Source: Lachnospiraceae bacterium (GTDB lineage: Bacteria > Bacillota > Clostridia > Lachnospirales > Lachnospiraceae). Taken from it: DNA of 52,670 nt. Where the stretch lies: NCBI GenBank assembly GCA_022800815.1, contig JAAWRC010000023.1:1-52670 (forward strand), read 5' to 3'. Under the pieces are notes generated by a model, which saw only the letters and a program-made list of their open reading frames with translations, did not search any database and was not told the origin of the DNA. The translations under genes and the position numbers were made by a program. Of the stretch, positions 6,116 to 27,845 are shown one piece after another. Position 1 is the stretch's first letter. Each line of letters begins with the position of its first letter.

Positions 6116-7345
6116 CTATTCCCCAATCCCATCTGTGCTAATATGATATTCTGTTTTTCCATTCTCTTTGAAAAGACGAATTGCCGCTTCATTTGCCGTA
6201 GCCGCCGTCACAAACACAAAAACCCCTTTTTGCAACAATCCATCCTGTTCCTGCGTACTCATCACGCCATGGAATTCAATTTTCTTATCTCTGTCATATA
6301 CCGAAACCAGTTTTGACTTCTTATAATGCTCTTCCATATAAGAACAAATCAAATCTGCCTTCTGCGTAATTCCCCAAACCGCATACAATATGCTTTCTTT
6401 TTCTTCAAAACAATTTTTGACATCTTCAATTACATTATCATAATGTTCCACCCATACCGGACGATTAATTTCCTCTGTCTCATAAAACTGACTCACGTCA
6501 AACATGTGCCCGTATTTGTCGTAAGCCTCTCTAAGCCGTCTGGCCGCACTTTGGAGAATCACCTTTTTCTCCGCTTCATATTCGACAGGTTTGGGATTCC
6601 AGTCAATGGACTCGAATTCATCTCTCGTATATACGTGGACATATCTTGCCAGCGTCGTAAAGCGAAAAGAAAATTTATCTTTCATCAAGATTACCGGTAC
6701 TCCCATCGCAACACACGGCAAAGCACAATGCAGACGTGTCGTAATAACAAGGCGGGCCTTTTCGGCATATTCCCGAAGATAAAATTTCATCATCTGCTCC
6801 GGATCATCACAGTCATGCAATATCTGGCTCCTGATTACTGCGCCATCCTGCAAGTATTTCGGTATGTAGGAATAATACTTCTGAGGAACATCCACCAAAT
6901 AGACGTTTGCCCCCCCCCCAGAACTTACGTTCGGAATCGTTGCCGTCAAACACCCGTTCATATAGGCGCAAACATTCCTTTCCCTGAGCCACTTTACCGT
7001 ATAATAGTCCCGGCAGCCGATCGGTTCAAATCTGCGCAGATAAACGATTTCCTCTTCTGAAATATTTCCTCCCATAACACTCAGCCCCAGAAAGACCGGA
7101 ATGATCTTCGGTGAAAACATAGTAATGTTCAATCCGTCCCGATACCCGTACAACGGAAAACTGACAGGAAGCACCACGTACTCGCCGTCATAAGAAGACA
7201 ACTGGGAAAGCCCTATGCGGATTACGTCCGCATAATCAATCCCCATCTCCTTATAAAGATTTTCCACGGCAACCAGCTGCATGTCGTCACCAATGTTCAC
7301 TGAACTCCTTCTGTTTCCGTCAAAAAGAATATTCGCATATTTCAT
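6116..7345 (-). CDS. Polysaccharide pyruvyl transferase family protein with C-terminal Rossmann-like domain
   Basis: The family (WcaK/CsaB-like) transfers pyruvyl ketals or related groups to glycans. In these 409 residues the N-terminal NIGDDMQ motif, EPIGCRDYYTVKWL (about 107-120) and TTRLHCALPCVAMGVPVI (about 200-217) are the hallmarks. The last 90 residues (from about 318) form a second alpha/beta unit starting ILYAVWGITQKADLI, resembling the N-terminal domains of the proteins at 9276-10730 and 10755-12242. An in-frame run of ten G encodes SSGGGA at about 142-147; loss or gain of one G would stop the protein there. ATG 7345 follows GGAGGTAAGAGG. Confidence 0.85.
   Translation of the reverse strand: MKYANILFDGNRRSSVNIGDDMQLVAVENLYKEMGIDYADVIRIGLSQLSSYDGEYVVLPVSFPLYGYRDGLNITMFSPKIIPVFLGLSVMGGNISEEEIVYLRRFEPIGCRDYYTVKWLRERNVCAYMNGCLTATIPNVSSGGGANVYLVDVPQKYYSYIPKYLQDGAVIRSQILHDCDDPEQMMKFYLREYAEKARLVITTRLHCALPCVAMGVPVILMKDKFSFRFTTLARYVHVYTRDEFESIDWNPKPVEYEAEKKVILQSAARRLREAYDKYGHMFDVSQFYETEEINRPVWVEHYDNVIEDVKNCFEEKESILYAVWGITQKADLICSYMEEHYKKSKLVSVYDRDKKIEFHGVMSTQEQDGLLQKGVFVFVTAATANEAAIRLFKENGKTEYHISTDGIGE
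6910..6919 (-). repeat. Poly-G tract (G10) inside the pyruvyltransferase-like gene
   Basis: Ten consecutive G on the coding (minus) strand, spanning codons GGG GGG GGG GCA. The gene is open with ten G. Tracts of this length slip readily during replication, which makes this a likely phase-variation site. A count error in the assembly is the alternative. Confidence 0.8.
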
Positions 7346-7363
7346 CCTCTTACCTCCATCTTG

Positions 7364-7392
7364 AATCAGGCAGTGTCAAACTCCACCTGATT
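7364..7392. other. Hairpin in the leader of the pyruvyltransferase-like gene
   Basis: AATCAGG (7364-7370) and CCTGATT (7386-7392) are perfect inverted repeats, with G-U pairs extending the stem on the minus strand to about ten pairs. Read on the plus strand it is followed by TTTTTT, which looks like a terminator, but there is no plus-strand gene to terminate. On the minus strand it lies just before the ribosome binding site of the gene starting at 7345. Confidence 0.4.
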
Positions 7393-7412
7393 TTTTGTTT
7401 TATTACTCGACA

Positions 7413-8354
7413 CTACCTCGCTTCTTCAAAATTCAAACATTCCCGTTCTAAAACCAATGGTCGTTTTGTAACCTTGGAAAGAACCACGCCAATATATTCC
7501 CCTATTACTCCCATAATCATGATTTGTACTGATCCTAAGAATAAAACGGCTATGAGAATTGGTGCAATACCTGCCGAGAAACTATTCCAATGAACCAGCT
7601 TATATATCAAATAAACAATACCAATAACGAATGATATTACCGAACAGGTAAGCCCCAAAAGCGTCGTCAGCCGGAGGGGCGCAGTCGAAGTATTAATGAG
7701 GGAATTTATTGCAAAGTCAAGCCAACGCCTGAGATTATAGCTGCTTTTTCCCTTTTTTCTTTTTCTTTGCATATATGGAACAAGTTTTACGGGATATCCC
7801 AAATCGGCAACCAAATGACGTACTGACATCGTCCGTTCATTTGAAGCTTCAATCTCTCTCCAGACGGATTTATCCATAATGCCAAAGCCCGTCACCTGTT
7901 CCAACTGCGGAACACTGGCTGCGCCTTTGATAATCCTATAATAAACTTTGCGCAAAAAATATTTTATCGGATTTTCCTGGCTTCCCGTCTTTTTCCCCCA
8001 TACAATCAGATTGCCATCTTCCCATTCTTTTATAAACACCGGTATCATTTCCGGCGGATCCTGTAAATCGCATGGCAACGAAATCACCGCATCACCGGTT
8101 GCCCTGATGCAGGCATTCTTTGACGAACGCGCAGGTCCATAGTTCCTATAATTAAAAATCACTTTTACATGCTTATCCGTTGCTGCAAGCTGCCTGAAAA
8201 TCCGTTCTGAACCATCCGTCGACGCATTATCCGCAAAAACAATTTCATAATCAAAGTTTTTTAAAGTCTGACATATCGCAGAAACCTGATTATAGGCATC
8301 CATAATATTTTGTTCCTCGTTATAACAGGCAATACATACGCTCAATTTTTTCAT
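7413..8354 (-). CDS. GT2 glycosyltransferase, GtrB/DPM1-like, polyprenyl-phosphate type
   Basis: Probably transfers a sugar from its nucleotide to a polyprenyl phosphate carrier, or to a lipid-linked acceptor, at the cytoplasmic membrane face. From MKKLSVCIACYNEEQN the GT-A domain covers about residues 1-220 with FADNASTDGS, the LPCDLQDPPEM acidic motif and a QRKRKKGKSSYNLRRW segment. Two membrane helices follow, and the family-typical GVIGEYIGVVLSKV and TKRPLVLE end the protein. Several starts are possible: 8354 and 8366 lie 13 and 1 bases after an AAGGAG, and a TTG at 8399 is farther upstream. I prefer 8354. A decayed relative lies at 5857-6113. Confidence 0.88.
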   Translation of the reverse strand: MKKLSVCIACYNEEQNIMDAYNQVSAICQTLKNFDYEIVFADNASTDGSERIFRQLAATDKHVKVIFNYRNYGPARSSKNACIRATGDAVISLPCDLQDPPEMIPVFIKEWEDGNLIVWGKKTGSQENPIKYFLRKVYYRIIKGAASVPQLEQVTGFGIMDKSVWREIEASNERTMSVRHLVADLGYPVKLVPYMQRKRKKGKSSYNLRRWLDFAINSLINTSTAPLRLTTLLGLTCSVISFVIGIVYLIYKLVHWNSFSAGIAPILIAVLFLGSVQIMIMGVIGEYIGVVLSKVTKRPLVLERECLNFEEAR

Positions 8355-8407
8355 ACGCAAATTCATACTCCTTATCATACGAAAAATTAATGATGTCAAA
8401 AGAAAAA

Positions 8408-9274
8408 CTATTGAGTATCCATTTGGAAAGCATTATGCAAAATTGCATTAATGCTCTCTATCACTTTTTCATTTCCAAATTGAATTGTCTTTCCTTCTTT
8501 CAAGATACGATTTTTATTCAACAAAATTTTATTCTGCACCCATTTATCCAGGTACTCATTCCGGTCAACCAACAATTTTCCTTTCCTCTTACGAGTCCCC
8601 CCATCTCGGTCAGACTGCCTCAGCCTTTGAACAAATTCTTCGTAAATTTGCCGAATAAAGCTATCATCATTTATAACCTTTAAAGAATCCAGCCAAAGCG
8701 GAGGAAAGGTCCCAATATCCATCAGCCAATCCATTTGCCATATCGCAGCAATGATATAAATGTAATCCCGCAAGGGCATCCTGTCTCCCACATTCCTTTC
8801 GGAAATATATTGGCAGCAATATTCAAACATCCATTGCTTATTAATCACTCCATTTGCCAAGGGAAGCAACTTTCCCGCCAAGCCAAACGGATCCCATGTA
8901 AATGGGCTGGAAAAAGTCCAGAAAAACTGATTGTACAACCCAACGGATATTCCCCTGTCGTCCAACTGCGGATTTATGAGAAGGCTTACAAATGTCTCAA
9001 CGTCCCAAAATGCGATTTTATCATAAATCTTATTCCCTTGAGGGTAGTACCGTACAACGGATTCGCACTCCCTATATTTTCGTTCCCTGTCTATAAACGG
9101 CATTGACTCCTTTTTATACAAAAACCGGATATCATAATCACTTTCCTTTCTGTTAATTCCTCTTGATATACTCCCCTGTACTGCAGCAAATACTAATTGG
9201 AACTCATGCTCCCCGGCAATTTCCATCGCATCATTCATGATCTCGTCCCTGATATTCTGATCCCCGTAAAGCAT
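8408..9274 (-). CDS. Nucleotidyltransferase-fold protein (YcgL/COG3541-like)
   Basis: A 288-residue protein with a DNA polymerase beta-type nucleotidyltransferase core: QGSISRGINRKESDYDIRFL (about 33-52) has the G-S-x(4)-G and S-D-x-D motifs. Homologues of the YcgL group have no firmly established substrate. Its place among glycosyltransferases and decoration genes suggests it could attach a nucleotide or phosphate group to a glycan intermediate, but this is inference. The start at ATG 9274 follows GGGGAGAAAGAGTAAG and is one base after the upstream stop, so translation is probably coupled. Alternatives at 9292 and 9298 overlap the upstream gene. Confidence 0.7.
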   Translation of the reverse strand: MLYGDQNIRDEIMNDAMEIAGEHEFQLVFAAVQGSISRGINRKESDYDIRFLYKKESMPFIDRERKYRECESVVRYYPQGNKIYDKIAFWDVETFVSLLINPQLDDRGISVGLYNQFFWTFSSPFTWDPFGLAGKLLPLANGVINKQWMFEYCCQYISERNVGDRMPLRDYIYIIAAIWQMDWLMDIGTFPPLWLDSLKVINDDSFIRQIYEEFVQRLRQSDRDGGTRKRKGKLLVDRNEYLDKWVQNKILLNKNRILKEGKTIQFGNEKVIESINAILHNAFQMDTQ

Positions 9275-9275
9275 C

Positions 9276-10730
9276 TTACTCTTTCTCCCCATAGACAAAT
9301 ACGGACTTTCCGGAAAGCATTCCCACGTTAATGAACTCCAAATGATCTTCTAATCTTCTTTGTTCCAAAAAATATATGGCTTTTGAACCATCCTTGATTG
9401 TCTTCACAGGAAATTCCGTTGTAATGACATAATCATAATCCTGGTTGATATTTGTATCTACATATTCGCACCCGGGACAGCATAATAAATCATTGATGGC
9501 CGTCTCCAATTCTTCATCCCAAATCTTCGTTGTTGATTTAAAAACCTGTGCGCCCCATCTTGCAAAAAATCTTACTAAAAAACCAAAATCACATACATCA
9601 ACTAATATTTTTTTATTTTCGTTTATTTTCCAATTTTTATTTCCCATATAAAAGCATACTTTCTGAAGAGTTCCATACCAAAAAGTACTTGTATAACAGG
9701 AAACATTTGCAAACATTGGATGCTCCACAGGCGCCACGATCTCATGAAGCTGTTTTTGCCGAATTAGTTCTTTGATTTTAAATACATGTTCCTGATTAAA
9801 CAAATATTGATACTCACTTTTTTTTACAGAAACCGGTATATACCAATCACCTTTGGAAACCAAAAAAGATGCCCTGTGCTTTCCGCTTATCAAGTTAAAA
9901 TATCCCTTGGAATTCCACTGGGCATCCGGAGCACTCTCAACAAAGAAAGAGGTTTTATTCTCATACTCCTTATTCATATTTTCAAAAATTTCCGCACGGT
10001 TTCGAAATACGTTTTCTTTCCATTTTGCCGTTGTCTCAAAGGAATTCAATCTATGCGCCGCCGCCTCACAGGATTCTAAATAAATACTATAATCTGCGCT
10101 TTCATCCCCCATTAAATATTTAAAGAATTGTATATGGGGGGTTAACATCGCTATATTGATATCCAAAAACGTCTCATCCTTGTCTTGGCTTATAAGCTGA
10201 GCTGTCTTATAATCTTTATCCGTATAAACTAAGCAAAATGGCAAGCGCACTTTTATTTTTTCGGTATCCTCACTTATTTTTAACGTATCATTCAACTCAA
10301 TGACGGGAAAAGAAAAAGTCTTCGGAACCTTTACCACGTCAATTTCTTTCCGTTTACTGATTGTATTACTCAATGTGTACAACAAATTTTCATCACTATT
10401 TCCCTTTCCCTTCAAGCTGCGATAGGGAAAGAAAATAATATTGTTAATCCCGAATTCCACCATCTCAATGGCAATCCGCTCATGCTCAAACACATTCTTT
10501 ACTGTAAGTATTACAATAATTTGTTCTTTCTCCGAAAATTCCGCAACCTGATGCAGGCTTAAAACCGGTTTCCCATTCAGTTCTGCTATTTCATCTGCCC
10601 TTTTATCAATAAAACCCTCCACGAAGTACCCCTGTTCTTCCAAATAATGAGCGGTAATCACCCCCATCGTCGCCGCTCCATACAGCCAGATCCTGCTCTT
10701 TTTATCAAAATCAAAATATAAAGTATTCAC
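9276..10730 (-). CDS. Unrecognised three-part protein: Rossmann-like, HR-motif domain, methyltransferase-like C-terminus (copy 2)
   Basis: I do not recognise this 484-residue protein as a characterised family. Residues 1-105 look like a nucleotide-binding alpha/beta domain: WLYGAATMGVITAHYLEEQG, then VEGFIDKRADE and EKEQIIVILTVKN, similar to PglD-type N-domains. The middle holds YFNLISGKHRASFLVSKGDW and IPVSV, reminiscent of the DGxHR loop of ParB/sulfiredoxin-like folds, here with SGKHR. The C-terminal 150 residues (KKILVDVCDFGFLVRFFARW) could be a degenerate SAM-methyltransferase fold. It is a divergent paralogue of the gene immediately upstream. GTG 10730 follows GGAGGAAGTGTA. Confidence 0.6.
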   Translation of the reverse strand: MNTLYFDFDKKSRIWLYGAATMGVITAHYLEEQGYFVEGFIDKRADEIAELNGKPVLSLHQVAEFSEKEQIIVILTVKNVFEHERIAIEMVEFGINNIIFFPYRSLKGKGNSDENLLYTLSNTISKRKEIDVVKVPKTFSFPVIELNDTLKISEDTEKIKVRLPFCLVYTDKDYKTAQLISQDKDETFLDINIAMLTPHIQFFKYLMGDESADYSIYLESCEAAAHRLNSFETTAKWKENVFRNRAEIFENMNKEYENKTSFFVESAPDAQWNSKGYFNLISGKHRASFLVSKGDWYIPVSVKKSEYQYLFNQEHVFKIKELIRQKQLHEIVAPVEHPMFANVSCYTSTFWYGTLQKVCFYMGNKNWKINENKKILVDVCDFGFLVRFFARWGAQVFKSTTKIWDEELETAINDLLCCPGCEYVDTNINQDYDYVITTEFPVKTIKDGSKAIYFLEQRRLEDHLEFINVGMLSGKSVFVYGEKE

Positions 10731-10754
10731 TACACTTCCTCCGCAATCATATCA

Positions 10755-12242
10755 TTAATTATCCGTTCTCTCCAGCAACAGGGTTACCGCCATGGCATCC
10801 CCCGCCCAGTACCTTTCAATCTCCTCTACCTCTTCCTTTTCTTTTATCGCATTGCAGGCCTCTTCCCTTACTCGAAGATATATGCTTCGGATTTTTAAGT
10901 TCATGATCTCTTCTAATTTTATTTTCCATTCATCTATATACAACAAATCCACGATTCCACAATCCCATATATCTTCTTCAAAATCTTCATTTTCCCCCAT
11001 TATCCTATATTTTTCTTCCGGGAACCCAAAAAAGGACATCAAAGTTTCGGACCATTCAACATCCGAATTGAATGTATAATAAGTAACATGCCGACTTCCT
11101 CCCCTAAGGATATTCCTCAGTAAATAACCTCCATCTTCAGCCAAAATAAAAACATTTTTGTTTCGAAAATGCATACACCTCTTTTGAATGCAAAACAAAA
11201 AGAGCCGAATGTCTTCTGAACAAGTTCGATTATGCAAATAAAAAGCCGGATGCTCAATATAATACCTCTTCTTTCCCGCCAGCGTTTTTTTAATGAGATT
11301 TTCCTCGTTTCCCAACGCCTCGTAATCTTCAACCTTAAGTTCCACCGGAACTTCCCATTCCCGCCGTCTGATCAGATATGTAATCCGATGCAGTCCGTCC
11401 CGAATATTGATATATTTTCCCTTGGAATTATAATACCCGCTTGCAGGAGATAAAAAGAAAAATCCTTTGTCATCACTCTTTTTAAATTCTTTATCATACA
11501 ACCTCAATAACGTACTTCGCCCGGTTAAAAGTCTTTTTTCTTCCTCTTTATTTAACCCCCCGTCTTTTGAATGTGTCTTAATATAGACTTCACAAGCTCC
11601 CTTTCCTGTACGCAAATATTCCCAAAGGTCAAAATAATCATATCTGGAGATTACATTTGTATTCCCAAATATTCCCGAACTCTTTTTTTGCTCCGCCCCA
11701 AGTCCGTCTGCAGAAACAAATTCTGAATATAACAGTTCAACCGGAAGGTATAATTTTAATCTTTTACCATCCACGCTCCATTTTCTTCCATATAAACAAT
11801 ATTGCCCCTCTCCCTGCTCTAATTCGTCATAAGAAGGTATCTCCCATGTTCTTTCGAGGTCAAATTCTCCATTAATAAGACTATTATAAATCTCATACAA
11901 TACCTTTGTTTTTTCGTTCTCCATATGCCATACCGGCAGAAAAATAATATTGCGATACCCGTTTTTATAAAGCATCTCGGCTGCATCCTCATGTTGCAAT
12001 GCATTTTCCATTGTACATATAACGACAATGTCACTCTTGTTCATCTCGGGAACCCGGGATATCCCGCAAATCTCTACTGGATGAACATTTCCACATAAAA
12101 CAGTTCGCCCCCACAAGCTTTCATTTCTGTCTATCACAAACAATACTTCTATACCGACTTTATTCAATAATTGACACAACGACTCTCCTTTTTTACCAGC
12201 CCCGTAAATAATCGCAGCCTTATTTTTATGAAACTTAAACAC
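10755..12242 (-). CDS. Unrecognised three-part protein: Rossmann-like, DGLHR domain, methyltransferase-like C-terminus (copy 1)
   Basis: A 495-residue protein with the same plan as its downstream neighbour. The N-terminus has a proper GxGxxG loop, AAIIYGAGKKGESLCQLL, with FVIDRN after the second strand and SDIVVICTMENA later. The middle has KYINIRDGLHRITYLIRRRE and VPVEL; DGLHR matches the ParB-like nucleotide-handling loop better than the SGKHR of copy 2. The C-terminal part has NVFILAEDGGYLLRNILRGG, methyltransferase-like. The start is GTG 12242 after GAGGTGAGAG, seven bases after the acyltransferase stop. The role is unknown; its context argues for making or adding a glycan substituent. 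Confidence 0.6.
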   Translation of the reverse strand: MFKFHKNKAAIIYGAGKKGESLCQLLNKVGIEVLFVIDRNESLWGRTVLCGNVHPVEICGISRVPEMNKSDIVVICTMENALQHEDAAEMLYKNGYRNIIFLPVWHMENEKTKVLYEIYNSLINGEFDLERTWEIPSYDELEQGEGQYCLYGRKWSVDGKRLKLYLPVELLYSEFVSADGLGAEQKKSSGIFGNTNVISRYDYFDLWEYLRTGKGACEVYIKTHSKDGGLNKEEEKRLLTGRSTLLRLYDKEFKKSDDKGFFFLSPASGYYNSKGKYINIRDGLHRITYLIRRREWEVPVELKVEDYEALGNEENLIKKTLAGKKRYYIEHPAFYLHNRTCSEDIRLFLFCIQKRCMHFRNKNVFILAEDGGYLLRNILRGGSRHVTYYTFNSDVEWSETLMSFFGFPEEKYRIMGENEDFEEDIWDCGIVDLLYIDEWKIKLEEIMNLKIRSIYLRVREEACNAIKEKEEVEEIERYWAGDAMAVTLLLERTDN

Positions 12243-12250
12243 CTCTCACC

Positions 12251-13352
12251 TCATCTACTTTCTTCTAAAAATAACCGCCTGACATGCCATTTATATTTAT
12301 CCCAAAATATTTTGACATATTTTATAAAAAAGACACAAAGCCAGGCAAGCACCAAACCCATAATGCAAAAAAGAGCTATACGTTTTCCTACATCCCATGA
12401 AGAAAACCACCGTTTCACCACATGCTGACAAGTAAGATGATTCATATACAATGCCATGCTATATTCCCCTAAAAAAACAAAACTTTTAGAATCTAATGCA
12501 TTAAGGCGTCGGCACAAACTTCCCGCCCCGCTTCCAGTTATCGCAAAACTTCCCGCAATACAAAGCAGCCATATAAAATCTATTGCTCCCTTACTACGCA
12601 AAAAAACTGTCACGAATATACTGACATATCCTGTACAGGCACACACAGACAGTAATCTGCGTCCCAAGCGTGTAAAAGATATATTTCTTAGTCTCTCGGC
12701 CACCGCATACACTATTATCCCTAAATTCATCCCCCCAAATGCGCGTATTAAACTATCGTATACAAAACCATTCCAATCTCCTGTAACATGCAGATATCCA
12801 TACTTTTTTGAAAAATACCCCATATAGAGAATAACCACGCATGGAGCAGCTATATAAGAATATGTCCGCAAATATCTTCGTAAAAAAGGATATATGAACA
12901 ACATTCCTATCAGCATTGCCGAGATATACCAGTCACCTTGTACCCATCTAAAAACATTTATTCCCGACTGATGCAACAATAGTATTTCCCACACGGAATA
13001 AACAAGGTTTTTTATTAATATTTTACCTGTTATTTGATAAATAATAATCTGGACTGTCGCCGAAACAATGTATGCAAAAGCAAAATATGGAAACAACGTC
13101 CCGATTTTCCTTCCTAAAAACGCTACTGTTTCTTCCCCCAAGCACAACGAGCCATTTTTTCTTTCTGCTGTTTTAAAAGCAGAACGAGCCATTAAAAATC
13201 CCGAAACCACGAAGAAAAATTCTACGCCAATATCCCCCCCCCGGGTATATTTTCACGCTATCTGGTGAAATCACGTAAATTGCATGATAAAATAAGATCA
13301 AAAGTGAAAATAGAAATTTCAAAACATCGATTGCATTATTTCTTTTTCTCAT
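12251..13352 (-). pseudogene. O-acyltransferase (acyltransferase family 3), frameshifted at a G9 tract
   Basis: These integral-membrane enzymes (OafA-like) add acetyl or other acyl groups to surface sugars. The true start is ATG 13352 after GAGGGTGCGATAAA, giving MRKRNNAIDVLKFLFSLLIL and FYHAIY with the conserved histidine. At 13234-13242 the coding strand has nine G. With nine, the frame shifts to GGGYWRRIF; with eight it would read GGDIGVEFFFVVSGFLMARS, the expected family motif, and join the remaining open frame of some ten membrane helices ending at 12251. The total of 1102 bases is one more than a multiple of three. I regard it as a switched-off phase-variable gene; a sequencing miscount is possible. 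Confidence 0.85.
13234..13242 (-). repeat. Poly-G tract (G9) inside the acyltransferase gene
   Basis: Nine consecutive G on the coding strand about 37 codons after the start. Eight would put the two parts of the acyltransferase in frame. Position and length are typical of contingency-gene tracts. Confidence 0.8.
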
Positions 13353-13381: not shown

Positions 13382-14440
13382 CTATCTATCCATAACAGTA
13401 TTTACACGTACCGGCCATATTATATCCACAAGTCTCTCACAACCTTTCCCGTCTACCATCTCCCGCATTTTTTCAGAAAGCTTCCGGCGCATCGACAAAC
13501 TATTCCTGAGTTGCTCCGTTTGCTCCCCTATCGCTTTCAGACATTGTTGCCTGTCTTCTCGAATATCTCCCACCCATGGTATAATGCCAAGGCGGGACAC
13601 GGTATGCGCAATGTCCAATTGATTGTCCGCCAGCGTGTACATGACGGAAGGAATTCCGGTGGCGCAGAGTTCATACGTCGTGACTCCCCCCGCCGTGACG
13701 GCCATGTCACACTGTGTCATATGCTCAGCCATATTTTTTACATTCCGCAATAAAACGACATTTTTATAATCTCCCCAGCGCTCCTCCAGCTTTTCCCTGT
13801 TCCTGTTAAAGCGTCCCAAAATCACTTGAAACTCCGCCACGCCAAACCATGACTTTTCTGCGAAACTTTCAAGAATTCCCCCCACCGCATCATAGGGGTC
13901 TGTCCCTCCCGACGTGATTAACACCCGAGATACGGTTTCATTGATTTTTCGGTCAATACGGGAGAACTCTTCCCGCAACGGCACATACCTGCATCCCAAC
14001 AGGATTTTTGTGTCCAGCCCCGCCTCCCGGTATCTTTTCTCATATTCCAGTTCTCCCGCATATATATTGTAATTCACCAGCAGGTCGACCGGATATAAGA
14101 ATTGATTCAAATCATCTATATAGACAAGTTTTGTATACTTCCCAATTTCTTTCAGATAAGTTTCCGTCACAAAATAAGAATCAATCAGCAGAGAGGAAAT
14201 CCCTCTGGCCTTTATCACCTGAACCATGGAAGCAATCTCTTTCTCCAGATCGTTCCACATCGAATTTAGGCAAATAACAGAAAATCCATGCTCCTCAATC
14301 ATGCTGCGGGAACGTTCATCCGCAATAATAAACGTCACCTCTTCGCCACGATGCCGAAACGCTTCCGCAATGGAAAGACACCGCATGACATGGCCCGTCC
14401 CAATCTCTTCATTGGCATCCGCCCGGATATAGTACCTCAT
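13382..14440 (-). CDS. pseG: UDP-2,4-diacetamido-2,4,6-trideoxy-beta-L-altropyranose hydrolase
   Basis: Removes UDP from the C1 position in the fourth step of pseudaminic acid synthesis. The 352-residue product starts MRYYIRADANEEIGTGHVMR, the PseG N-terminus with the glycine-rich GTGH loop and catalytic histidine. The GT-B-like C-terminal half has LITSGGTDP and MAVTAGGVTTYELCATGIP, typical of the family. ATG 14440 follows GGTGGAACATT. It overlaps the end of pseH by 32 bases, so the two are translationally linked. A longer frame from 14563 only adds out-of-family residues. Confidence 0.92.
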   Translation of the reverse strand: MRYYIRADANEEIGTGHVMRCLSIAEAFRHRGEEVTFIIADERSRSMIEEHGFSVICLNSMWNDLEKEIASMVQVIKARGISSLLIDSYFVTETYLKEIGKYTKLVYIDDLNQFLYPVDLLVNYNIYAGELEYEKRYREAGLDTKILLGCRYVPLREEFSRIDRKINETVSRVLITSGGTDPYDAVGGILESFAEKSWFGVAEFQVILGRFNRNREKLEERWGDYKNVVLLRNVKNMAEHMTQCDMAVTAGGVTTYELCATGIPSVMYTLADNQLDIAHTVSRLGIIPWVGDIREDRQQCLKAIGEQTEQLRNSLSMRRKLSEKMREMVDGKGCERLVDIIWPVRVNTVMDR

Positions 14441-14897
14441 AATGTTCCACCAATTTCCTGTAGCAATAGACATCATCCACTTTTTGGGCTTCATATCCCA
14501 GTTCCTCAAAAATTTTTTGGGAGGCCACGTTATGCTGCAAAACCTCGCCATAACTGTATGCACATGAGGGAAAAACAGTCAAAGCAGCATTGTTCAGCAG
14601 TTTCAACAAGGTACTACCATACCCGCATCCTCGCCGTTTGGGAATAATGCTGTAGCTGATCCTGCACCCTCTCTCCGTCAGCTCCAAACGTCCCTGACCG
14701 ACTGCCTCGTCTCCGTCCATTAAAATATACTGCTTCCGTGTATCAGAGCCCAAAATCCCTTTTAGCCATTCTACATGGCTGTCAAAGGCAATCCGGTCGG
14801 AATTCAGAGAATTCCTCCTGCACTCCGGATCGTTCACCAGGTCAAACAAAAAGACGGCATCTTCCTCTGTCGCAGGGCGTAAAGCTACTTTCCCCAT
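14409..14897 (-). CDS. pseH: PseH-like GNAT N-acetyltransferase
   Basis: Acetylates the 4-amino group of the UDP-sugar between PseC and PseG, using acetyl-CoA. The 162 residues show a GNAT fold: LRPATEEDAVFLFDLVND at the N-terminus, the acyl-CoA loop IIPKRRGCGYGSTLL (about 92-106) and the C-terminal VASQKIFEELGYEAQK. ATG 14897 sits behind GGAGGAAGAACC; the GTG at 14915 has no such site. Neighbours pseI upstream and pseG downstream settle the role better than the sequence alone. Confidence 0.87.
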   Translation of the reverse strand: MGKVALRPATEEDAVFLFDLVNDPECRRNSLNSDRIAFDSHVEWLKGILGSDTRKQYILMDGDEAVGQGRLELTERGCRISYSIIPKRRGCGYGSTLLKLLNNAALTVFPSCAYSYGEVLQHNVASQKIFEELGYEAQKVDDVYCYRKLVEHYEVLYPGGCQ

Positions 14898-14911: not shown

Positions 14912-15949
14912 TCACTCGCCTTCCTCCAACTTGTCATAGGACAGCGGCTCCCCGTAAGGGATTCGTTCCTTCGCCCGCATGCCGATGACCTTTTTGTATT
15001 CCTTCGGTTTCAGGCCGTATCCCGGGCGGATGATGCGGACGTTCTCCGCCGTGACCCTCTCCCCCGCCTCAATATCTTTCACCGCAAAAATGGACCGGCG
15101 GAACACGATGCTGTTTTCCTCCTGGCTCGTGGGGCCGTACTTGACGGTTCCCACCGCCTTCTCCGCCAGACGGACGTCCTCGACCATCTGCCTAAACTCC
15201 TGCGGCTCCATGGAAAAAGAGGAGTCCGGATTTTCTATGGACCGGCTCAGACAAAAATGCTTCTCAATCACCTTTGCCCCCAGGGCCACGGCCGTCACAG
15301 CCGCCAGGGACCCCATGGAATGGTCCGACAGCCCTACCGGAACCTGAAAGCGCTTCCCCATGTCCTGAATCGTCACAAGGTTCATCTCGTCGGAAACCGC
15401 AGGATAGGCGCTGGCGCAGCGAAGCAGGACGATCTGTTCATTTCCCTGCCCCCGGATTGCCCGGACCGCCTCCTCGATCTCCTCCGCAGTCCCCATGCCC
15501 GTGGAGAGTATGATCGGCTTTCCCTTCGACGCCACGTATTCAATCAGCGGAATGTCCACCAATTCAAAAGAGGCAATCTTATAGAACTCCATTCCGAGCT
15601 CTTCCAGAAAATCGACCGCTGTTTTATCGAAAGGCGTTGACAGAAAATCAATCTCCGCTTTCTCTGCCTCCCTCTTTAATTCCCCCTGCCATTCCCAGGG
15701 GGTATAAGCCTTTTCATAGAGATGATAGAGATTTTCCCCCTCCCATGTCCCATTGTCAATATGGAAATAGGAATTGTCACAGTCAATGGTCAGCGTATCC
15801 GCCGTATAAGTCTGTATTTTAACGCAGTCCGCACCGGCCTCTTTTGCGGCCCATATGATCTCCTTGGCCCGCTCAATGCTGCCCGCATGATTTGCCGACA
15901 TCTCGGCGATCATATAGGCACGCTGCAGGTTGTTTATATCAAATTTCAT
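14912..15949 (-). CDS. pseI: Pseudaminic acid synthase
   Basis: Condenses phosphoenolpyruvate with 2,4-diacetamido-2,4,6-trideoxy-L-altrose to give pseudaminic acid. The 345 residues have the NeuB TIM barrel (MIAEMSANHAGSIERAKEII, VKIQTYTADT, DFLSTPFD, PIILSTGMGT, VGLSDHSMG, VIEKHFCLSR) and a C-terminal SAF/antifreeze-like domain from about residue 285 (GERVTAENVRIIRPGYGLKP). The MSANH motif and FCLSR are typical of PseI rather than of sialic acid synthase. ATG 15949 follows AGAGGTTTAA. Confidence 0.94.
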   Translation of the reverse strand: MKFDINNLQRAYMIAEMSANHAGSIERAKEIIWAAKEAGADCVKIQTYTADTLTIDCDNSYFHIDNGTWEGENLYHLYEKAYTPWEWQGELKREAEKAEIDFLSTPFDKTAVDFLEELGMEFYKIASFELVDIPLIEYVASKGKPIILSTGMGTAEEIEEAVRAIRGQGNEQIVLLRCASAYPAVSDEMNLVTIQDMGKRFQVPVGLSDHSMGSLAAVTAVALGAKVIEKHFCLSRSIENPDSSFSMEPQEFRQMVEDVRLAEKAVGTVKYGPTSQEENSIVFRRSIFAVKDIEAGERVTAENVRIIRPGYGLKPKEYKKVIGMRAKERIPYGEPLSYDKLEEGE

Positions 15950-15963
15950 TTAAACCTCTTTTC

Positions 15964-17181
15964 TCAGTCCTTCCGATACGCCTGAACCACCTTTTTCACA
16001 GCCGTTATCACGTCCTCCACGTCCTCGTCCGTCATGGCATAATACAGAGGAAGCGTCAGAATCCGTTCGTACAGCCGCTCCGCATTGGGGCACAGTCCTT
16101 TCCCGTATCCCAATTTTTGATAATGGGGGAAATAATATACCGGAATATAATGGACATTGCATGCAACCCCCTCCGCTCCAAGGGCGTCAAATACCTCTTT
16201 CCGGGAGACGGTCAGTTCCTCAAGGTTCAGTTGAAGGATGTATAAATGTCTCACCGTGTCAGATTCCGCAATCTCCTTCTGCACCACGACCTGGGGCAGC
16301 TCTCCAAATGCCTCGTCGTATCTCGCCACAATCTCTTTCCGGCGTTTTGCGAACCGGGGAAGCTTGTCCAGCTGACTGCTTATCAGCGCCGCCTGAATGT
16401 CCGTCATGCGGTAGTTGTACCCCAGTCCGACCTGCTGATAGTACCATTTTCCCTCGGAGTTCCCTTCCATCAGCGACTCGTCCCTGGTAATCCCGTGGGT
16501 GCGGCCAAGCTTCAGCAGCGTGTAGTATTCCTCATTGTCAGTGAGAATGGCGCCGCCCTCGCCGCCGGTGATCGTCTTTACCGGATGAAAGCTGAAAATC
16601 GTCATATCCGCAATGCTGCCCACATATCTTCCCTTGTATTTCGTTCCTATGGAATGGGAAGCGTCCTCGATCAGGCACAGCCCATGTTCCCCGCACAGTT
16701 TCCGGATCGGCCCCAGGTCAGCCGCCTGCCCCGTGTAATCCACGGCAACCACGGCCTTCGTCCTCGAAGAAATCTTTTTCTCTATCTCCTCCGGCGATAT
16801 GTTGTAGGTATCCGGATTGATATCGGCGAATACCGGCCGGCCGCCGCAATATAAGGCGCAGTTCGCCGAGGCGGCAAAGGTGATCGGGGTCGTGATGACC
16901 TCGTCCCCCTCCGAGATTCCCGCCGCCATGCAGGCCAGATGCAGTGCTGCGGTCCCATTGCTCACCATCACCGCATACTTCGCCCCGGTCAGATCACATA
17001 ATTTCTTTTCCACCTCTTCGATTTTCGGCCCGCAGGTGAGAAAATCACTTCTCAAGACCTCCGTCACCGCCTCAATATCCGCATCGTCAATATACTGATG
17101 TCCGTAAAATATCGTTTTCTCCCGGACCGGCCTCCCGCCGTGAATCGCCAGCCCTGCCGTCTCTTCCGTCCTGTTATCCAT
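15964..17181 (-). CDS. pseC: UDP-4-amino-4,6-dideoxy-N-acetyl-beta-L-altrosamine transaminase
   Basis: This PLP enzyme transfers an amino group from glutamate to the 4-keto product of PseB. It has 405 residues. The PLP lysine lies in FSFHPVKTITGGEGG (about 195-209), with LIEDASHSIGTKYKG before it and GLGYNYRMTDIQAALISSQL after it, all typical of the DegT/DnrJ family and specifically PseC. ATG 17181 follows directly on the pseB stop codon (TAA at 17182-17184) with AGAGGAACATTAA as its binding site, so pseB and pseC are coupled. Confidence 0.94.
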   Translation of the reverse strand: MDNRTEETAGLAIHGGRPVREKTIFYGHQYIDDADIEAVTEVLRSDFLTCGPKIEEVEKKLCDLTGAKYAVMVSNGTAALHLACMAAGISEGDEVITTPITFAASANCALYCGGRPVFADINPDTYNISPEEIEKKISSRTKAVVAVDYTGQAADLGPIRKLCGEHGLCLIEDASHSIGTKYKGRYVGSIADMTIFSFHPVKTITGGEGGAILTDNEEYYTLLKLGRTHGITRDESLMEGNSEGKWYYQQVGLGYNYRMTDIQAALISSQLDKLPRFAKRRKEIVARYDEAFGELPQVVVQKEIAESDTVRHLYILQLNLEELTVSRKEVFDALGAEGVACNVHYIPVYYFPHYQKLGYGKGLCPNAERLYERILTLPLYYAMTDEDVEDVITAVKKVVQAYRKD

Positions 17182-18183
17182 TTAATGTTCCTCTAACCCT
17201 TTCAGCTCTTCCCTGATTTCCTCCACGGACAGCCACTGCTTGTTGGTTCCGGAATTATACTCAAAACCGTCCACGACCTTCTTGCCGTCTCCCACCTTGC
17301 TCTCATCAAACTTCCACCAGTCAAAATGAGGATAGATGATGTAATGCCTGTCATACTCGTAGGTCAGATAGCTGTCGTCCTTCGTCACCATAACCTCGTG
17401 CAGCTTCTCGCCCTCGCGGATGCCGATTTCCCTGATTCCCCCCTCCGGCAGCATGGCCTTCGCCAAGTCCGTAATGTAGAACGAGGGAATTTTGGAGATG
17501 TAGGTTTCCCCCCCCTTCGATTCCTCCAGGGCCTTGAAGACCAGCTCCACGCCCTGCTTCAGGGTAATCCAGAACCTGGTCATGCGGCTGTCTGTGATGG
17601 GAAGCTCCTTGGCCCCATGCTGAATCAGGTCCGCGAACACGGGAATGACTGACCCGCGGCTCCCCGCCACGTTACCGTAGCGCACCACCGAGAACTTCGT
17701 CCCGCTGACCTTGCTGTACGCATTGGCGGAGATGAACAGCTTGTCCGACACCAGCTTCGTCCCGCCGTACAGGTTGATGGGATTGACCGCCTTGTCCGTG
17801 GACAGAGCGATCACCTTCTTGACTCCCCTGTCAATGGCTGCGTCAATCACGTTTTGTGCGCCATGGATATTGGTCTTGATCGCCTCAAAGGGATTGTACT
17901 CGCAGGTGGGGACCTGCTTCATGGCGGCCGCATGAATCACATAATCCACACGGTCAAAGGCCCGCATCAGCCTGTCCTTGTCCCTGACGTCCCCGATAAA
18001 GAAACGGACCCTCGACAAATCCAGCTTATCCTGATACTTGGTTTTCATCAAATGCTGCTTAAACTCATCCCTGGAATAGATGATCACCCGGTGGGGCTCA
18101 TACCGCTCCAACAGCATCTCCAAAAACTTGTGTCCAAAACTGCCCGTTCCGCCCGTGACCAAAATCGTTTTTCCGTTTAACAT
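17182..18183 (-). CDS. pseB: UDP-GlcNAc 4,6-dehydratase (inverting)
   Basis: First enzyme of pseudaminic acid synthesis; it also inverts C5. The 333-residue product has LVTGGTGSFGHKF as the NADP loop, IHAAAMKQVPTCEYNPFEA, ALSTDKAVNPINLYGGTK with catalytic Asp-Lys and Tyr, and RYGNVAGSRGSV. MKQVP instead of the membrane-bound type supports the soluble PseB/FlaA1 group. The start at ATG 18183 follows GAGGAAGAGAAC; the GTG at 18228 adds 15 spurious residues. A G8 tract at 17508-17515 encodes KGGE and is in frame. Confidence 0.94.
   Translation of the reverse strand: MLNGKTILVTGGTGSFGHKFLEMLLERYEPHRVIIYSRDEFKQHLMKTKYQDKLDLSRVRFFIGDVRDKDRLMRAFDRVDYVIHAAAMKQVPTCEYNPFEAIKTNIHGAQNVIDAAIDRGVKKVIALSTDKAVNPINLYGGTKLVSDKLFISANAYSKVSGTKFSVVRYGNVAGSRGSVIPVFADLIQHGAKELPITDSRMTRFWITLKQGVELVFKALEESKGGETYISKIPSFYITDLAKAMLPEGGIREIGIREGEKLHEVMVTKDDSYLTYEYDRHYIIYPHFDWWKFDESKVGDGKKVVDGFEYNSGTNKQWLSVEEIREELKGLEEH
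17508..17515 (-). repeat. Poly-G tract (G8) inside pseB
   Basis: Eight G on the coding strand in AAG GGG GGG GAA, in frame. The KGGE peptide is conserved in PseB, so the tract may be only codon choice, but it is as long as the acyltransferase tract would be in its on state. Confidence 0.55.
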
Positions 18184-18206
18184 GTTCTCTTCCTCTTTCC
18201 GTGTTT

Positions 18207-18290
18207 TTAATGATTTCGTGATCCCCACACACTGACATCGTAGTCAAAAGGTGCTTCTGATACCAGGAATTCTGCCCCTTCCGGTATCAT
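18207..18290 (-). CDS. Possible 27-residue coupled small ORF
   Basis: ATG 18290 overlaps the TGA of the upstream reductase gene as ATGA, the usual arrangement for translational coupling. The frame runs 27 codons to a TAA at 18207-18209, starting MIPEGAEFLVSEAPFDYDVS and ending in an aromatic, acidic sequence with no membrane helix. I know no family for it. It could be a leader peptide before pseB, a remnant of the reductase C-terminus, or chance. Confidence 0.3.
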   Translation of the reverse strand: MIPEGAEFLVSEAPFDYDVSVWGSRNH

Positions 18291-19166: not shown

Positions 19167-20972
19167 TCACTCCCCCCAGTCAGGCATATTTTCTGCCTGT
19201 TCCCTTTCATCCACGAAGGGATACAGGTTTTCCAGCTTGCTGGAGGTAAAGGTCCCGTCCGCATTCGCCACGGTGAGCGATTTGGGAATTTCGTCAAAAT
19301 AGATGGAAGAAACCACTTCGCATAAGCAGGGGGCGTCATCCGCCATGCATTTTTCCAAAACCTCTTCCACCTGCGCATCGTTCTCAATCCGGAAATAATT
19401 CAGGTGGAAGGTGCGGGCAATGTCCCTCATATCCGGAAGAATCAGGCCACTCTCTTCGTTACATCCCGCAAAATTCGATTTGAAATTATTTCTCTGCATC
19501 GTGTAAATCGACGCATAGCCCTCATTGGAGAGGACAAACAATTTAAGAGGAAGCTTATAGGTGGAGATCAGCTGCAGTTCCTGCAGATTGTGCTGGAGGC
19601 TTCCGTCCCCCTCCAATACCAGCGTCCTCCGCTTTCCACTGGCCACGCAACAGGCAATCGCACTGGGAACGCACCATCCCATGGAACCAAGCCCCATGGA
19701 GGTGACAAACCGCTGCCCCTTCTTCAGCCGGTACGCCATGTGGGAAATCCCGCAAGTGCGGCCCGAGGAGGACCCCACGAACACGTCCGTCGCCTTCGAG
19801 AACTCCGACAATTTTTCCGCAAGGAAGAAGCCGTCTGTCTTCCCCTCGTTGTCAAAGGGCTGGCGTTCCCGGTTCAAGGGATACTTCTCCTTCATCCTGA
19901 TACAATAAGACAGCCATGCCCCCCTGTCCTTCTGCCGATACCTCCCTTTTTCTTCCAGAAGCCTGTCCAAAAATTCGGCAGCATCCGCCTGGAACTCCAG
20001 GGCGAAGTCCATGTTCAACTTGTCAATCTCGCCCTGCTCGATATCCACGATCACTTTCTTTGCATTGGGTGCAAAATGCGGCTCGTCAAAAGCCGTGATG
20101 GCGGGATTCAGACGTGTTCCCACGATCAACAGGAAATCCGCATTCTGCAGAACATAATTGGAGTAGCGGGTCGTGGGAACGCCCGGACTTCCCATGTACA
20201 GGGCTTCCTCGTCGCCGAATACCCCTTTCGCACGCCACGTGCTCAAAACCGGAATCTGGAATTCCTCCACCAGCTTCCGGATCTCCTCCTTCCGGTTGGC
20301 CGCAACCACCCCGTGGCCAATCAAAATCGCCGGACGCCTCGCCTCGTTTAACAGCCGATACACTTCCTCCAGCTTTGTCTCCTCGACGGCGGGCAAATCC
20401 TGATACCCTTCTTCGTCCGGCTCAAAAGCACGCAGGTCCTCCGTCTCCACCTGCGCCCCCTGAACGTCCAGAGGCACGTCGATCCAGACGGGCCCTTTCC
20501 TTCCGTGGGTCGCCAAATAAACCGCCTTTTCCAGATGATAACGGATGTCCTCTTTATTTAACACAATCTCCGCATACTTGGTGATCGCCTTCACCACGGG
20601 TATGATGGCGATCTCCTGGGCTCCATAAATCCGCAGCCCCTTTAACTGGCCCATCTGCTCCGTCTTACACTGTCCGGAAATGTAGAGCGCCGGCGACCCG
20701 TCCACCCACGCCCCCGCACAGCCGGTCACGGCGTTCGTGGCTCCCGGCCCGGTCGTCACCATGCAGGCCCCCAGATGCCCCGTGTACTGGGCATAGCTGT
20801 CCGCACAGATCCCGCTGGCCTGCTCGTTCAGGTTAAAAATCAAGTTCAATCCCTCCTGGCGCTTCACGCTGTCCAAGAGGTGCATCATCCCGCCGCCGGA
20901 GATCAGAAACAGGTCTCGAATCCCCTGAGCTACCAAAAACTGCGCAATATAGTCCGATACTTTGATTTTCAT
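19167..20972 (-). CDS. Thiamine diphosphate-dependent enzyme, acetolactate-synthase-like (possible YerE-type)
   Basis: A 601-residue three-domain ThDP enzyme. The activating glutamate is in FNLNEQASGICADSYAQYTG (about 47-66), the central domain spans about 200-340, and the ThDP/Mg motif GDGSLQHN with LQELQLI lies in the C-terminal third. It is embedded among nucleotide-sugar genes and paired with a sugar SDR, not with branched-chain amino-acid genes and without a small regulatory subunit. YerE of Yersinia adds a two-carbon unit from pyruvate to CDP-3,6-dideoxy-4-keto-glucose, and rfbF/H/G in this window can supply most of that pathway. The role is therefore plausible but unproved. ATG 20972 follows GGGGAGCGTGAG. 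Confidence 0.82.
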   Translation of the reverse strand: MKIKVSDYIAQFLVAQGIRDLFLISGGGMMHLLDSVKRQEGLNLIFNLNEQASGICADSYAQYTGHLGACMVTTGPGATNAVTGCAGAWVDGSPALYISGQCKTEQMGQLKGLRIYGAQEIAIIPVVKAITKYAEIVLNKEDIRYHLEKAVYLATHGRKGPVWIDVPLDVQGAQVETEDLRAFEPDEEGYQDLPAVEETKLEEVYRLLNEARRPAILIGHGVVAANRKEEIRKLVEEFQIPVLSTWRAKGVFGDEEALYMGSPGVPTTRYSNYVLQNADFLLIVGTRLNPAITAFDEPHFAPNAKKVIVDIEQGEIDKLNMDFALEFQADAAEFLDRLLEEKGRYRQKDRGAWLSYCIRMKEKYPLNRERQPFDNEGKTDGFFLAEKLSEFSKATDVFVGSSSGRTCGISHMAYRLKKGQRFVTSMGLGSMGWCVPSAIACCVASGKRRTLVLEGDGSLQHNLQELQLISTYKLPLKLFVLSNEGYASIYTMQRNNFKSNFAGCNEESGLILPDMRDIARTFHLNYFRIENDAQVEEVLEKCMADDAPCLCEVVSSIYFDEIPKSLTVANADGTFTSSKLENLYPFVDEREQAENMPDWGE

Positions 20973-25592: not shown

Positions 25593-27845
25593 CTAGTATT
25601 CTCTGGGACGTCTTATTTTCTTCACCAATGGCAATGAATTCAAGATCCTTTCATAAACCAGATGCATCTTATAAAACTTGGAAGCCCGTATAATTTCCAA
25701 ATCGGATTTTAATACGCAATTCTCCTGCTTCAACTGTTCATATGCCAGAGAATCTTCCACCTCCATGCCGACGGCTTCTTCTTTGATCGGCGTCTCAACA
25801 ATATGGCCAACCCTGGGCTGCACCCAAGTCTGGTTCCCCCACAGGTAACCGGGCCCGTTCGCATTCGTCAGGTTGTAAATGTCCGCTCCATATCTCTCAT
25901 ACAGCGCATGGTGCTTCTCTTCCATCGTCTTGTACAGATACATCTTCGCACTGAACGCCATCACCCTTGTCATGCTGTCCTTCCTCACGCGGTAATAACA
26001 TAAAGGCTCCGGTATGCACACCCCGTTTCTCCCATTCTGCACCATGCCAAGCCACCCGTCATAGTCCTCCATCCCGTATTCCACGGCTTTTCGGTTTTGG
26101 CCGAAACAGACAAAATCTGCCTTCCTCACCACGGCAAATGCAGAAAGCATGTTTCCCATGAGCATATAGGGCAGCTCCGTGTTAAACGTCGTCCATACCC
26201 CGTCGCTCCCCTCAAAATACTGCAGCCAGCTATATACGAAGCTCACATTCTCATACTGCTCCAGTACTTCTATGCATCGTCTGTAATAATCCGGACTCAC
26301 CTTGTCATCTGCATCCAGAAAGCTGATGTATTCTCCTCTGGCCAGTCTGCTCCCCACGTTTCTCGCATTGGCCAGCCCGCCATTTGGAATATTCTCTATG
26401 CGGACTTTCGGATATCTTTCCCGGATCTCTTCCAATTTTTCCAGACTCCCCGGATCCGTGCTTCCATCATTGATGATGATCGTCTCGTAGTTTTCATAGT
26501 CGATCTTTGCAAGGCTCTCCATGGTCTCCATAACCGTGTTTCCCAAATTATAGTAGCAGATGATTACCGACAGCAACCCCCGCTCCCCCTTGTCCACATG
26601 CTCCGGAAGGCTTGTCACCCTCTGCGCATTTAGAACAGGGAATGTCTTTCTCTCCTTCCTGCCCATGACCTCTCTAAAAAACGCCTCTCTTTTTCTGACG
26701 TTTTCATCCGGGCCGCAAAGCTGACGAATGTACTTCTTCCCGTTTTCTCCCATCTGTCTCAACTCTTCATCCGTCAGGCGCAAAAATTTCTCTATCTTCT
26801 CTGCGCAGTCTCCTTCCTTCTCCCAGTCAAACACGATTCCCCGGCTTCCGTCTTCGCCCGTCATCTCGCTCTGGCCCCCTTGCTTCGACACCAGCATCGG
26901 GCATCCCTGCCACATGGCTTCCAGACATGTGTACGGAAAATTTTCATAAATGGAGGGAACAACGATCCCTCTCGCTTTTACGATCCTTCTGTTCAACTCG
27001 CTTGGAGGTATCGCACCGTTGATCTCCAACAATCCCTCTTCGATCCATTTTTGATATTTCTCTTTGATAATCTCCCCTAAGTTCCTGTCTTTTGGAGAAA
27101 AGAAGGTGTCCCCCCCTATGGTAACCAGTTTCGTCCTGTTTCCTTTTTCCCACAGGTGCGCCATCTGCTCAATAAACTGCATGATCCCTTTCCTGTATTC
27201 CAGCCGACCCGTATAAAGCAGGTAATTCCCGCATTCATAACTGACCTCTTCTTCACATTCAAAGGGCTGAGGAATGACGGTAATCTCTTTATCCGGAAAT
27301 TCCTTCTGAATAAATTTTTTCAGAAATTCGCTTGGAATAACAAGGCCGTCGGCACCTTCAATACAGAATTTCTCCATCCTGCCAATCCAATAGGTCGGAA
27401 ATGCGTACTCCGAATCCCTGTTAATTCTCACCAGTTCAAACGTCGGTGTATGCAGATGGACCACGATTCGGGTGTCCTTCAGGAACTTCTCGTCCAGCAG
27501 CTTGTACTGCAAAATATAATAGGCGGGCGCATTGTACTCCTGCGCCTCGATGATGTCCGGTTCTCCTTCTTGTTCGGCGTATTTGCGAACCACTTCATAA
27601 TATTGATACGAGAGCGCCGTCCAGTATCCCAGCCTGCCGTACGCCCTGCTCCTGTTCCCCGAAGCCTCGAACCGGACATAGGACAGTCTCTCATTCACCC
27701 TCTCAATCCGATCTTCCGTGTCGCGCACGAACACTTTCACCTCATGGCCTTTTTCTGCCATAAGACGGCTGATAATGTCCACGTACATCCCGATTCCTCC
27801 GCCATAAGACGGCGGAAACTCACTTGTTATATACCAGATTTTCAT
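25593..27845 (-). CDS. Bifunctional GT4-GT2 glycosyltransferase, copy 2
   Basis: Two glycosyltransferases in one 750-residue chain. The GT-B (GT4) part, about 1-395, starts MKIWYITSEFPPSYGGGIGM and carries the E-x7-E motif in YENFPYTCLEAMWQG. The GT-A (GT2) part, about 425-650, has LLSVIICYYNLGNT, INDGSTD and FLDADDKVSPDYY. A variable tail includes a short charged helix. It is a recent duplicate of the gene directly upstream, with near-identical long stretches. Both units would add successive sugars of the repeat. ATG 27845 follows GAGGGAGATAGT. Confidence 0.88.
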   Translation of the reverse strand: MKIWYITSEFPPSYGGGIGMYVDIISRLMAEKGHEVKVFVRDTEDRIERVNERLSYVRFEASGNRSRAYGRLGYWTALSYQYYEVVRKYAEQEGEPDIIEAQEYNAPAYYILQYKLLDEKFLKDTRIVVHLHTPTFELVRINRDSEYAFPTYWIGRMEKFCIEGADGLVIPSEFLKKFIQKEFPDKEITVIPQPFECEEEVSYECGNYLLYTGRLEYRKGIMQFIEQMAHLWEKGNRTKLVTIGGDTFFSPKDRNLGEIIKEKYQKWIEEGLLEINGAIPPSELNRRIVKARGIVVPSIYENFPYTCLEAMWQGCPMLVSKQGGQSEMTGEDGSRGIVFDWEKEGDCAEKIEKFLRLTDEELRQMGENGKKYIRQLCGPDENVRKREAFFREVMGRKERKTFPVLNAQRVTSLPEHVDKGERGLLSVIICYYNLGNTVMETMESLAKIDYENYETIIINDGSTDPGSLEKLEEIRERYPKVRIENIPNGGLANARNVGSRLARGEYISFLDADDKVSPDYYRRCIEVLEQYENVSFVYSWLQYFEGSDGVWTTFNTELPYMLMGNMLSAFAVVRKADFVCFGQNRKAVEYGMEDYDGWLGMVQNGRNGVCIPEPLCYYRVRKDSMTRVMAFSAKMYLYKTMEEKHHALYERYGADIYNLTNANGPGYLWGNQTWVQPRVGHIVETPIKEEAVGMEVEDSLAYEQLKQENCVLKSDLEIIRASKFYKMHLVYERILNSLPLVKKIRRPREY

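Follow-up and report, generated by a model that had tools for sequence, protein, structure and literature searches.

Are the long poly-G tracts in two glycan-decoration genes of a Lachnospiraceae bacterium switches that turn these genes on and off, or are they runs that slip without being selected? The question is raised by a stretch of 52,670 bases (contig JAAWRC010000023.1; guanine-plus-cytosine (GC) content 0.486), hereafter the window, in which one tract breaks a membrane O-acyltransferase gene and another lies within an open polysaccharide pyruvyltransferase-like gene. A first-pass annotation had suggested phase variation in a Firmicute. The host assignment agrees with the best named match of the PseB-type protein of the window, which comes from an uncultured Lachnospiraceae metagenome-assembled genome (MAG; sample set Lapin, 91 percent). 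On balance, we lean towards phase variation, by strand slippage, of accessory genes for glycan decoration; the locus is probably a new case of a known kind of switch in a little-described bacterial group.

Reading frames of the two tracts

On the coding strand, the pyruvyltransferase-like gene carries a run of ten G (G10) and the acyltransferase gene a run of nine (G9), and a run of eight (G8) occurs in pseB (Table 1). All three had been reported by the first-pass annotation. Its coordinates and lengths are exact, G10 and G8 lie in frame, and the frames read on either side of G9 bear out that the acyltransferase is out of frame and is reopened by one G fewer. One more C run in the window, at 27110-27116, is 7 long.

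The open reading frame bearing G10 is open at its full length of 409 amino acids. In the acyltransferase gene, the frame of the ATG (at 13352, with GAGGG upstream) is open for 110 nucleotides before the tract and meets a stop 23 codons from the start of G9. A frame of 327 codons, beginning with DIGVEFF, runs from the tract to 12251. The PF01757 (Acyl_transf_3) match lies in this downstream piece, with a score of 49.6 bits (cut-off 31) and coverage of positions 53-323 of the 326 in the profile. The tract is the sole break seen in the open frames of the acyltransferase gene. In both genes, as read from the frames on either side, a single-G change at the tract shifts the reading frame. G10 and G9 share the sequence features of a slipped-strand locus, namely a long homopolymer, a frame switch and a gene that is otherwise intact.

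A cassette of six close-set genes, with gaps of -23 to 67 nucleotides, is bounded by these two genes. They had been described as neighbouring, but four genes lie between them. Two runs of at least nine are unlikely to occur by chance in this low-GC cassette. When the codon order of the six genes was shuffled, the mean number of such runs was 0.057, and two or more were obtained in 1 of 3000 shuffles; a Markov-2 model gave a mean of 0.07. Across the genome (3.40 Mb, 75 contigs), which has 94 G7, 19 G8, 4 G9, 3 G10 and 2 G11 tracts, five tracts of at least ten were seen versus 1.5 expected from a geometric fall (P = 0.017), and nine of at least nine versus 6.4 expected (P = 0.20). The nine longest tracts include two pairs no more than 6.4 kb apart, versus 0.13 pairs expected.

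Proposed switch and its products

In the mechanism that we propose, the polymerase would lengthen or shorten the G9 or G10 run by one G at replication, and each such change would shift the frame and toggle the acyltransferase or the pyruvyltransferase. The assembly would have captured the acyltransferase in the off state and the pyruvyltransferase in the on state. The off product of the acyltransferase gene would end soon after the tract, without most of the membrane domain. If, as we take it, the first membrane helix of such acyltransferases contains the catalytic histidine, a product initiated further downstream would lack this residue. An off pyruvyltransferase would meet a stop about 28 to 35 codons further on. 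Within a single population, cells could then differ in whether their surface glycan bears an O-acyl group and a pyruvate ketal. We infer that the length of the tracts varies in the population, that the glycan is affected and that this variation is selected for.

Surface glycans of gut clostridia are recognised by phages, antibodies and lectins. If the proposal is right, a strain would comprise several antigenic forms, and ordinary genome or metagenome data would reveal, through their tract lengths, the dominant form in each host. Alternatively, transcriptional slippage or programmed frameshifting might yield some full-length acyltransferase from the G9 gene with the DNA unchanged. This explanation draws on the general possibility of such events, and we consider it very improbable.

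Conservation of the tracts and their genes

Both tract genes are accessory, which is usual for phase-variable decoration genes. At E 1e-20, relatives of the pyruvyltransferase are present in 4 of 298 other genomes of the family; the one other member of the genus included in this sample gave no match, nor was a relative found among the 22 stretches matched in a contig scan. No relative of the acyltransferase was detected at E 1e-10 in the 10 other genomes of the genus. G10 encodes glycines in a variable loop, and a glycine triplet is present there in none of seven aligned relatives, so that the pyruvyltransferase protein does not require it.

The G8 of pseB was considered as a third switch and rejected. 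The corresponding Gly-Gly-Glu was matched at 80 sites of 80 named loci, where the runs have 2 to 6 G, which makes the G8 a local, in-frame expansion. Most G8 tracts of the genome lie within ordinary genes without breaking the frame. The 80 pse loci of named relatives (1.33 Mb) contain 7, 3, 3 and 1 runs of 7, 8, 9 and 10, respectively. Of the four runs of at least nine, one coincides with a frame break (L080), another falls at a gene junction and the remaining two are in frame; most pse loci are therefore without such a tract. The L080 tract (19318-19327) is a C10 on the coding strand, located between two open frames near the pse locus of a named Lachnospiraceae MAG.

Tracts in acyltransferases and other genes of the genus

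Genus comparisons were based on 11 assemblies, one genome per species, including that of the window. The ten other species have 36 tracts of at least nine in total, and one species is without any. Such tracts occur in 3 of the 26 Acyl_transf_3 genes of the 11 genomes. Without the genome of the window, 2 of 22 genes carry one versus 0.03 to 0.05 expected (P = 0.0005-0.001, with gene lengths assumed to be 1.1-1.6 kb), an excess weakened by the fact that the test was run after both genes concerned had been seen, though the class had been named beforehand in the first-pass annotation.

Both genes belong to species G008, in which they contain the only two tracts of at least nine. In the first (L125), the tract is out of frame and Pfam matches are obtained on each side separately, in different frames; the gene scored just below the cut-off in one search (30.4 bits) and above it in another. 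In the second (L133), which lies in a locus read as a glycan locus, the tract is in frame. Both tracts map to the N-terminal part, as in the window acyltransferase, but at different codons. A second acyltransferase gene in the genome of the window (G000:C40:33559-34533) has one internal TAG.

Judged by their open frames, four more genes of the genus are broken at the tract only. They include a glycosyltransferase identified by Pfam (PF13692) in G010 (L144) and a membrane gene with no Pfam match in G007 (L157), for which a glycan locus is probable from the neighbours. The other two are a regulator-like gene with no Pfam match in G009 (L141) and an unnamed gene in G005 (L124). A GT8 gene was tried as an orthologous on/off tract and discarded: the G004 copy, called shifted automatically, has a C9 by substitution and is in frame. 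Only the G006 copy (L210, G006:C48 near 82608) is out of frame: a C6 near its 5' end is not in register with the ATG that we read for it. Three other species have relatives with an in-frame C8 or C9. The C6 is too short and is therefore unlikely to be a switch.

Frame breaks and glycan genes at long tracts

The tracts of at least nine number 45 (9 from the genome of the window, 36 from the rest of the genus), 21 of which lie inside genes (8 and 13, respectively). The remaining 24 were set aside, as they lie between genes, at gene starts or at contig ends, or are unclear. From the 94 G7 tracts of the genome, 20 stretches with 24 tracts, 20 of them coding, served as G7 controls. Where both flanks are coding, defined as a score of at least 0.10 on each flank by a cut set after the scores were seen, 7 of 12 tracts of at least nine from the 11 genomes are frame breaks, versus 2 of 23 G7-G8 tracts of the window's own genome (P = 0.003). 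With gene junctions left out, the counts are 5 of 10 and 0 of 21 (P = 0.0015). Codon scoring is wrong or weak for short flanks; for instance, the response regulator at L028:577 is in frame by eye, and neither this gene nor the window acyltransferase is among the 12. The excess of frame breaks indicates that runs of G9 or longer do slip, either in the DNA or in the data.

Slippage in the data would mean that long G runs were misread in sequencing or assembly, in which case the acyltransferase gene would truly have one G fewer and be open. Such errors would be in keeping with a draft assembly of 75 contigs, and poly-G artefacts do occur in the genome set. For instance, a run of 51 G (L161, G007:C42:25063-25113) sits right at the end of a G007 contig, next to a methyltransferase-like frame; it is an assembly artefact that may have grown from a real poly-G tract. 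However, 10 of 11 G8 tracts of the window's own genome with scores on both sides are in frame, the only one called a frame break lying near a gene start, and the G10 of the same cassette is itself in frame. Sequencing error is, in our judgement, improbable.

Glycan genes account for 8 of the 21 coding tracts of at least nine, versus 3 of 35 G7-G8 tracts (P = 0.010). Six of the 21 were labelled by Pfam (the two window genes, L125, L133, L144 and L154). Two were labelled without it, L015 through its likeness to genes read as glycosyltransferases and L157 through its neighbours. The G7-G8 controls were named with Pfam, and those with no match (L017, L170, L177 and L180) were taken as non-glycan; a single GT8 site, seen in two species, accounts for both the G8 control L014 and the tract L154.

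Long tracts outside surface genes

Besides the timing of the acyltransferase test, several observations weigh against phase variation. In-frame tracts of at least nine are also present in a MATE-like transporter gene, a D-Ala-D-Ala-carboxypeptidase-like gene and an OmpR-type response regulator gene of the same genome. Out of frame at long tracts are a TPR gene, a class I/II aminotransferase gene and a transposase-like fragment, and one further tract is undecided; several of the names come from reading the sequences. The TPR gene (L015; L191 8056-9171) is out of frame at a G11 and clearly broken once more upstream. The aminotransferase and transposase genes (L021 and L022), which are two of the five non-junction frame breaks, appear truncated too, as judged partly from general knowledge of the families. 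In all, three of the four out-of-frame tract genes of the genome look like pseudogenes with further damage. Long tracts in this genome thus also occur outside switchable surface genes.

The glycan share is also sensitive to a few genes. It falls to 6 of 19 without the window pair (P = 0.040) and to 5 of 19 when L157 is, in addition, not counted as glycan (P = 0.090). Codon scoring placed the window acyltransferase on the other strand, and not as coding, which is why the gene is missing from the 12 tracts scored. Finally, among 397 family genomes, a pattern blind to tracts at other codons detected a G run of at least eight before the GVxxFF motif only in that of the window.

A rival explanation is unselected slippage. 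Once a run happened to reach about nine, its length would drift up and down, and this would be most apparent in genes that have become dispensable. The acyltransferase would be an early pseudogene and G10 a tolerated in-frame loop expansion. The apparent damage elsewhere in L015, L021 and L022, the long tracts in non-surface genes, the lack of conservation of the acyltransferase tract and the accessory nature of both genes fit this explanation. Yet a second lesion was not seen in the window acyltransferase, two further acyltransferases of another species carry tracts, and glycan or probable glycan genes are singly broken in G007, G008 and G010. We regard unselected slippage as rather unlikely.

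Phase variation, which we prefer, retains from the first-pass proposal the long G runs in a row of decoration genes, one gene being open and the other broken only at the tract, and gains the excess of frame breaks and the two additional acyltransferases. The proposal is weaker than first stated in that other long tracts lie in non-surface or damaged genes. The TPR gene L015 is akin to two glycosyltransferase-like genes beside flagellin, but its G11 was dropped as support, despite the flagellin and glycosyltransferase-like neighbours, because of the second break upstream. A mutator was rejected as the cause of the tracts, as MutS1 and MutL are present in all five genomes queried.

Gene organization of the window

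The positions of the tracts and of the surrounding genes are listed in Table 1. The GC content is 0.36 to 0.44 in the six cassette genes, 0.53 to 0.55 in the upstream pseI-, pseC- and pseB-type genes and 0.50 to 0.58 in three sugar-nucleotide genes below position 4,307. The gene adjacent to the acyltransferase is one that we take to be PseG-like from reading its sequence.

Table 1 Poly-G tracts and genes of the decoration cassette and the adjoining Pse genes
Feature	Position	Strand	Remarks
G10 tract	6910-6919	-	C10 on forward strand; in frame, codon 143 of pyruvyltransferase-like gene
G9 tract	13234-13242	-	C9 on forward strand; out of frame, 110 nucleotides after acyltransferase ATG
G8 tract in pseB	17508-17515	-	C8 on forward strand; in frame, at conserved Gly-Gly-Glu
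Polysaccharide pyruvyltransferase-like gene, open	6116..7345	-	PF04230, E 4.1e-14, 53.6 bits (cut-off 25.3)
Glycosyltransferase family 2 gene of cassette	7413..8399	-	PF00535, E 4.1e-23
Nucleotidyltransferase-like gene of cassette	8408..9298	-	PF10127, E 3.5e-9
Cassette gene	9276..10730	-	No Pfam match
Cassette gene	10755..12242	-	No Pfam match
Membrane O-acyltransferase (Acyl_transf_3) gene	12251..13352	-	PF01757, E 3.9e-13, downstream piece
PseG-like gene	13382..14563	-	No Pfam match; label from sequence reading and general knowledge
PseI/NeuB-type synthase	14912..15949	-	PF03102, E 1.1e-92
PseC-type aminotransferase	15964..17181	-	PF01041, E 1.1e-119
PseB-type dehydratase	17182..18228	-	PF02719, E 3e-103

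Poly-G-rich genomes of the same order

Two genomes of the same order are rich in G runs. G053, from another family (about 3.5 Mb), has 407 overlapping G9 matches and 29 exact G10 tracts, versus 3 in the genome of the window. The first 23 tracts listed for G053 comprise one G9, ten G10, eight G11 and four longer runs, which is not a chance-like fall. Of 32 tracts read (12 chosen as at least ten, 20 from the exact-G10 list; L195-L206 and L212-L231; gene names by reading), about nine directly follow the lipoprotein-like N-terminus of solute-binding-like proteins. Several others fall within AraC-like regulators or close to where histidine-kinase-like genes end, and a pyruvyltransferase-like gene has one at which its frame is broken. 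A downstream GAACTTAAG-like motif is common to some of the intergenic tracts. The G053 tracts are possibly a genome-wide contingency system. G040 (1.9 Mb) has 142 overlapping G9 matches but a single exact G10, and therefore probably contains a few very long runs, perhaps artefacts.

More broadly, and tentatively, the genus may keep poly-G contingency tracts as a standing system of surface-glycan diversity, mainly in glycan O-acyltransferases and with on and off copies within one genome; in at least one other lineage of the order (G053), such tracts would have spread genome-wide, reaching sugar-binding lipoproteins and regulators.

Comparison with known systems

Among the titles and abstract openings listed in searches of an open-licence library, none dealt with glycan-gene phase variation by poly-G tracts in Lachnospiraceae, though such a paper may still exist. 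Partial parallels come from both Firmicutes and other bacteria, and one of the latter, Gardnerella, is an actinobacterium. Homopolymer tracts associated with phase-variable colonies are described in Gardnerella (PMC11287997). The G/C tracts are of at least eight, as here; in Gardnerella they vary, and a number of the genes appear to encode surface proteins. In contrast to the window, about 70 percent of the G/C tracts are upstream of genes. In Listeria monocytogenes inlA, the portion of PMC2831843 concerned presents a poly(A) tract and a general homopolymer model. This is a slippage frameshift in a Firmicute gene, as proposed here, but the tract is poly(A), a single gene is involved and no glycan is concerned.

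The pneumococcal capsule O-acetyltransferase gene wcyO undergoes frameshifts in homopolymeric regions, according to the relevant part of PMC6218050. It resembles the window acyltransferase in being a Firmicute glycan O-acyltransferase gene inactivated by single-base homopolymer changes. Unlike what is proposed for the window genes, wcyO is described as inactivated in isolates, with no demonstrated reversible switch, and no long G run features in the passages concerned.

The closest proven case is that of Cj1295 and its neighbours in Campylobacter jejuni. In this flagellin glycosylation locus, as set out in the sections of PMC3068675 devoted to it, Cj1295 is off with eight G and on with nine. 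Ten G/C tracts are present, and switching was proven by variants, sequencing and mass spectrometry. The window differs from this locus in its Gram-positive lineage, in having two tracts of at least nine in the cassette and in being known from sequence alone. It shares with it tracts of the G8-G9 type in modification genes of a pseudaminic-acid glycan, and adjacent genes in opposite states.

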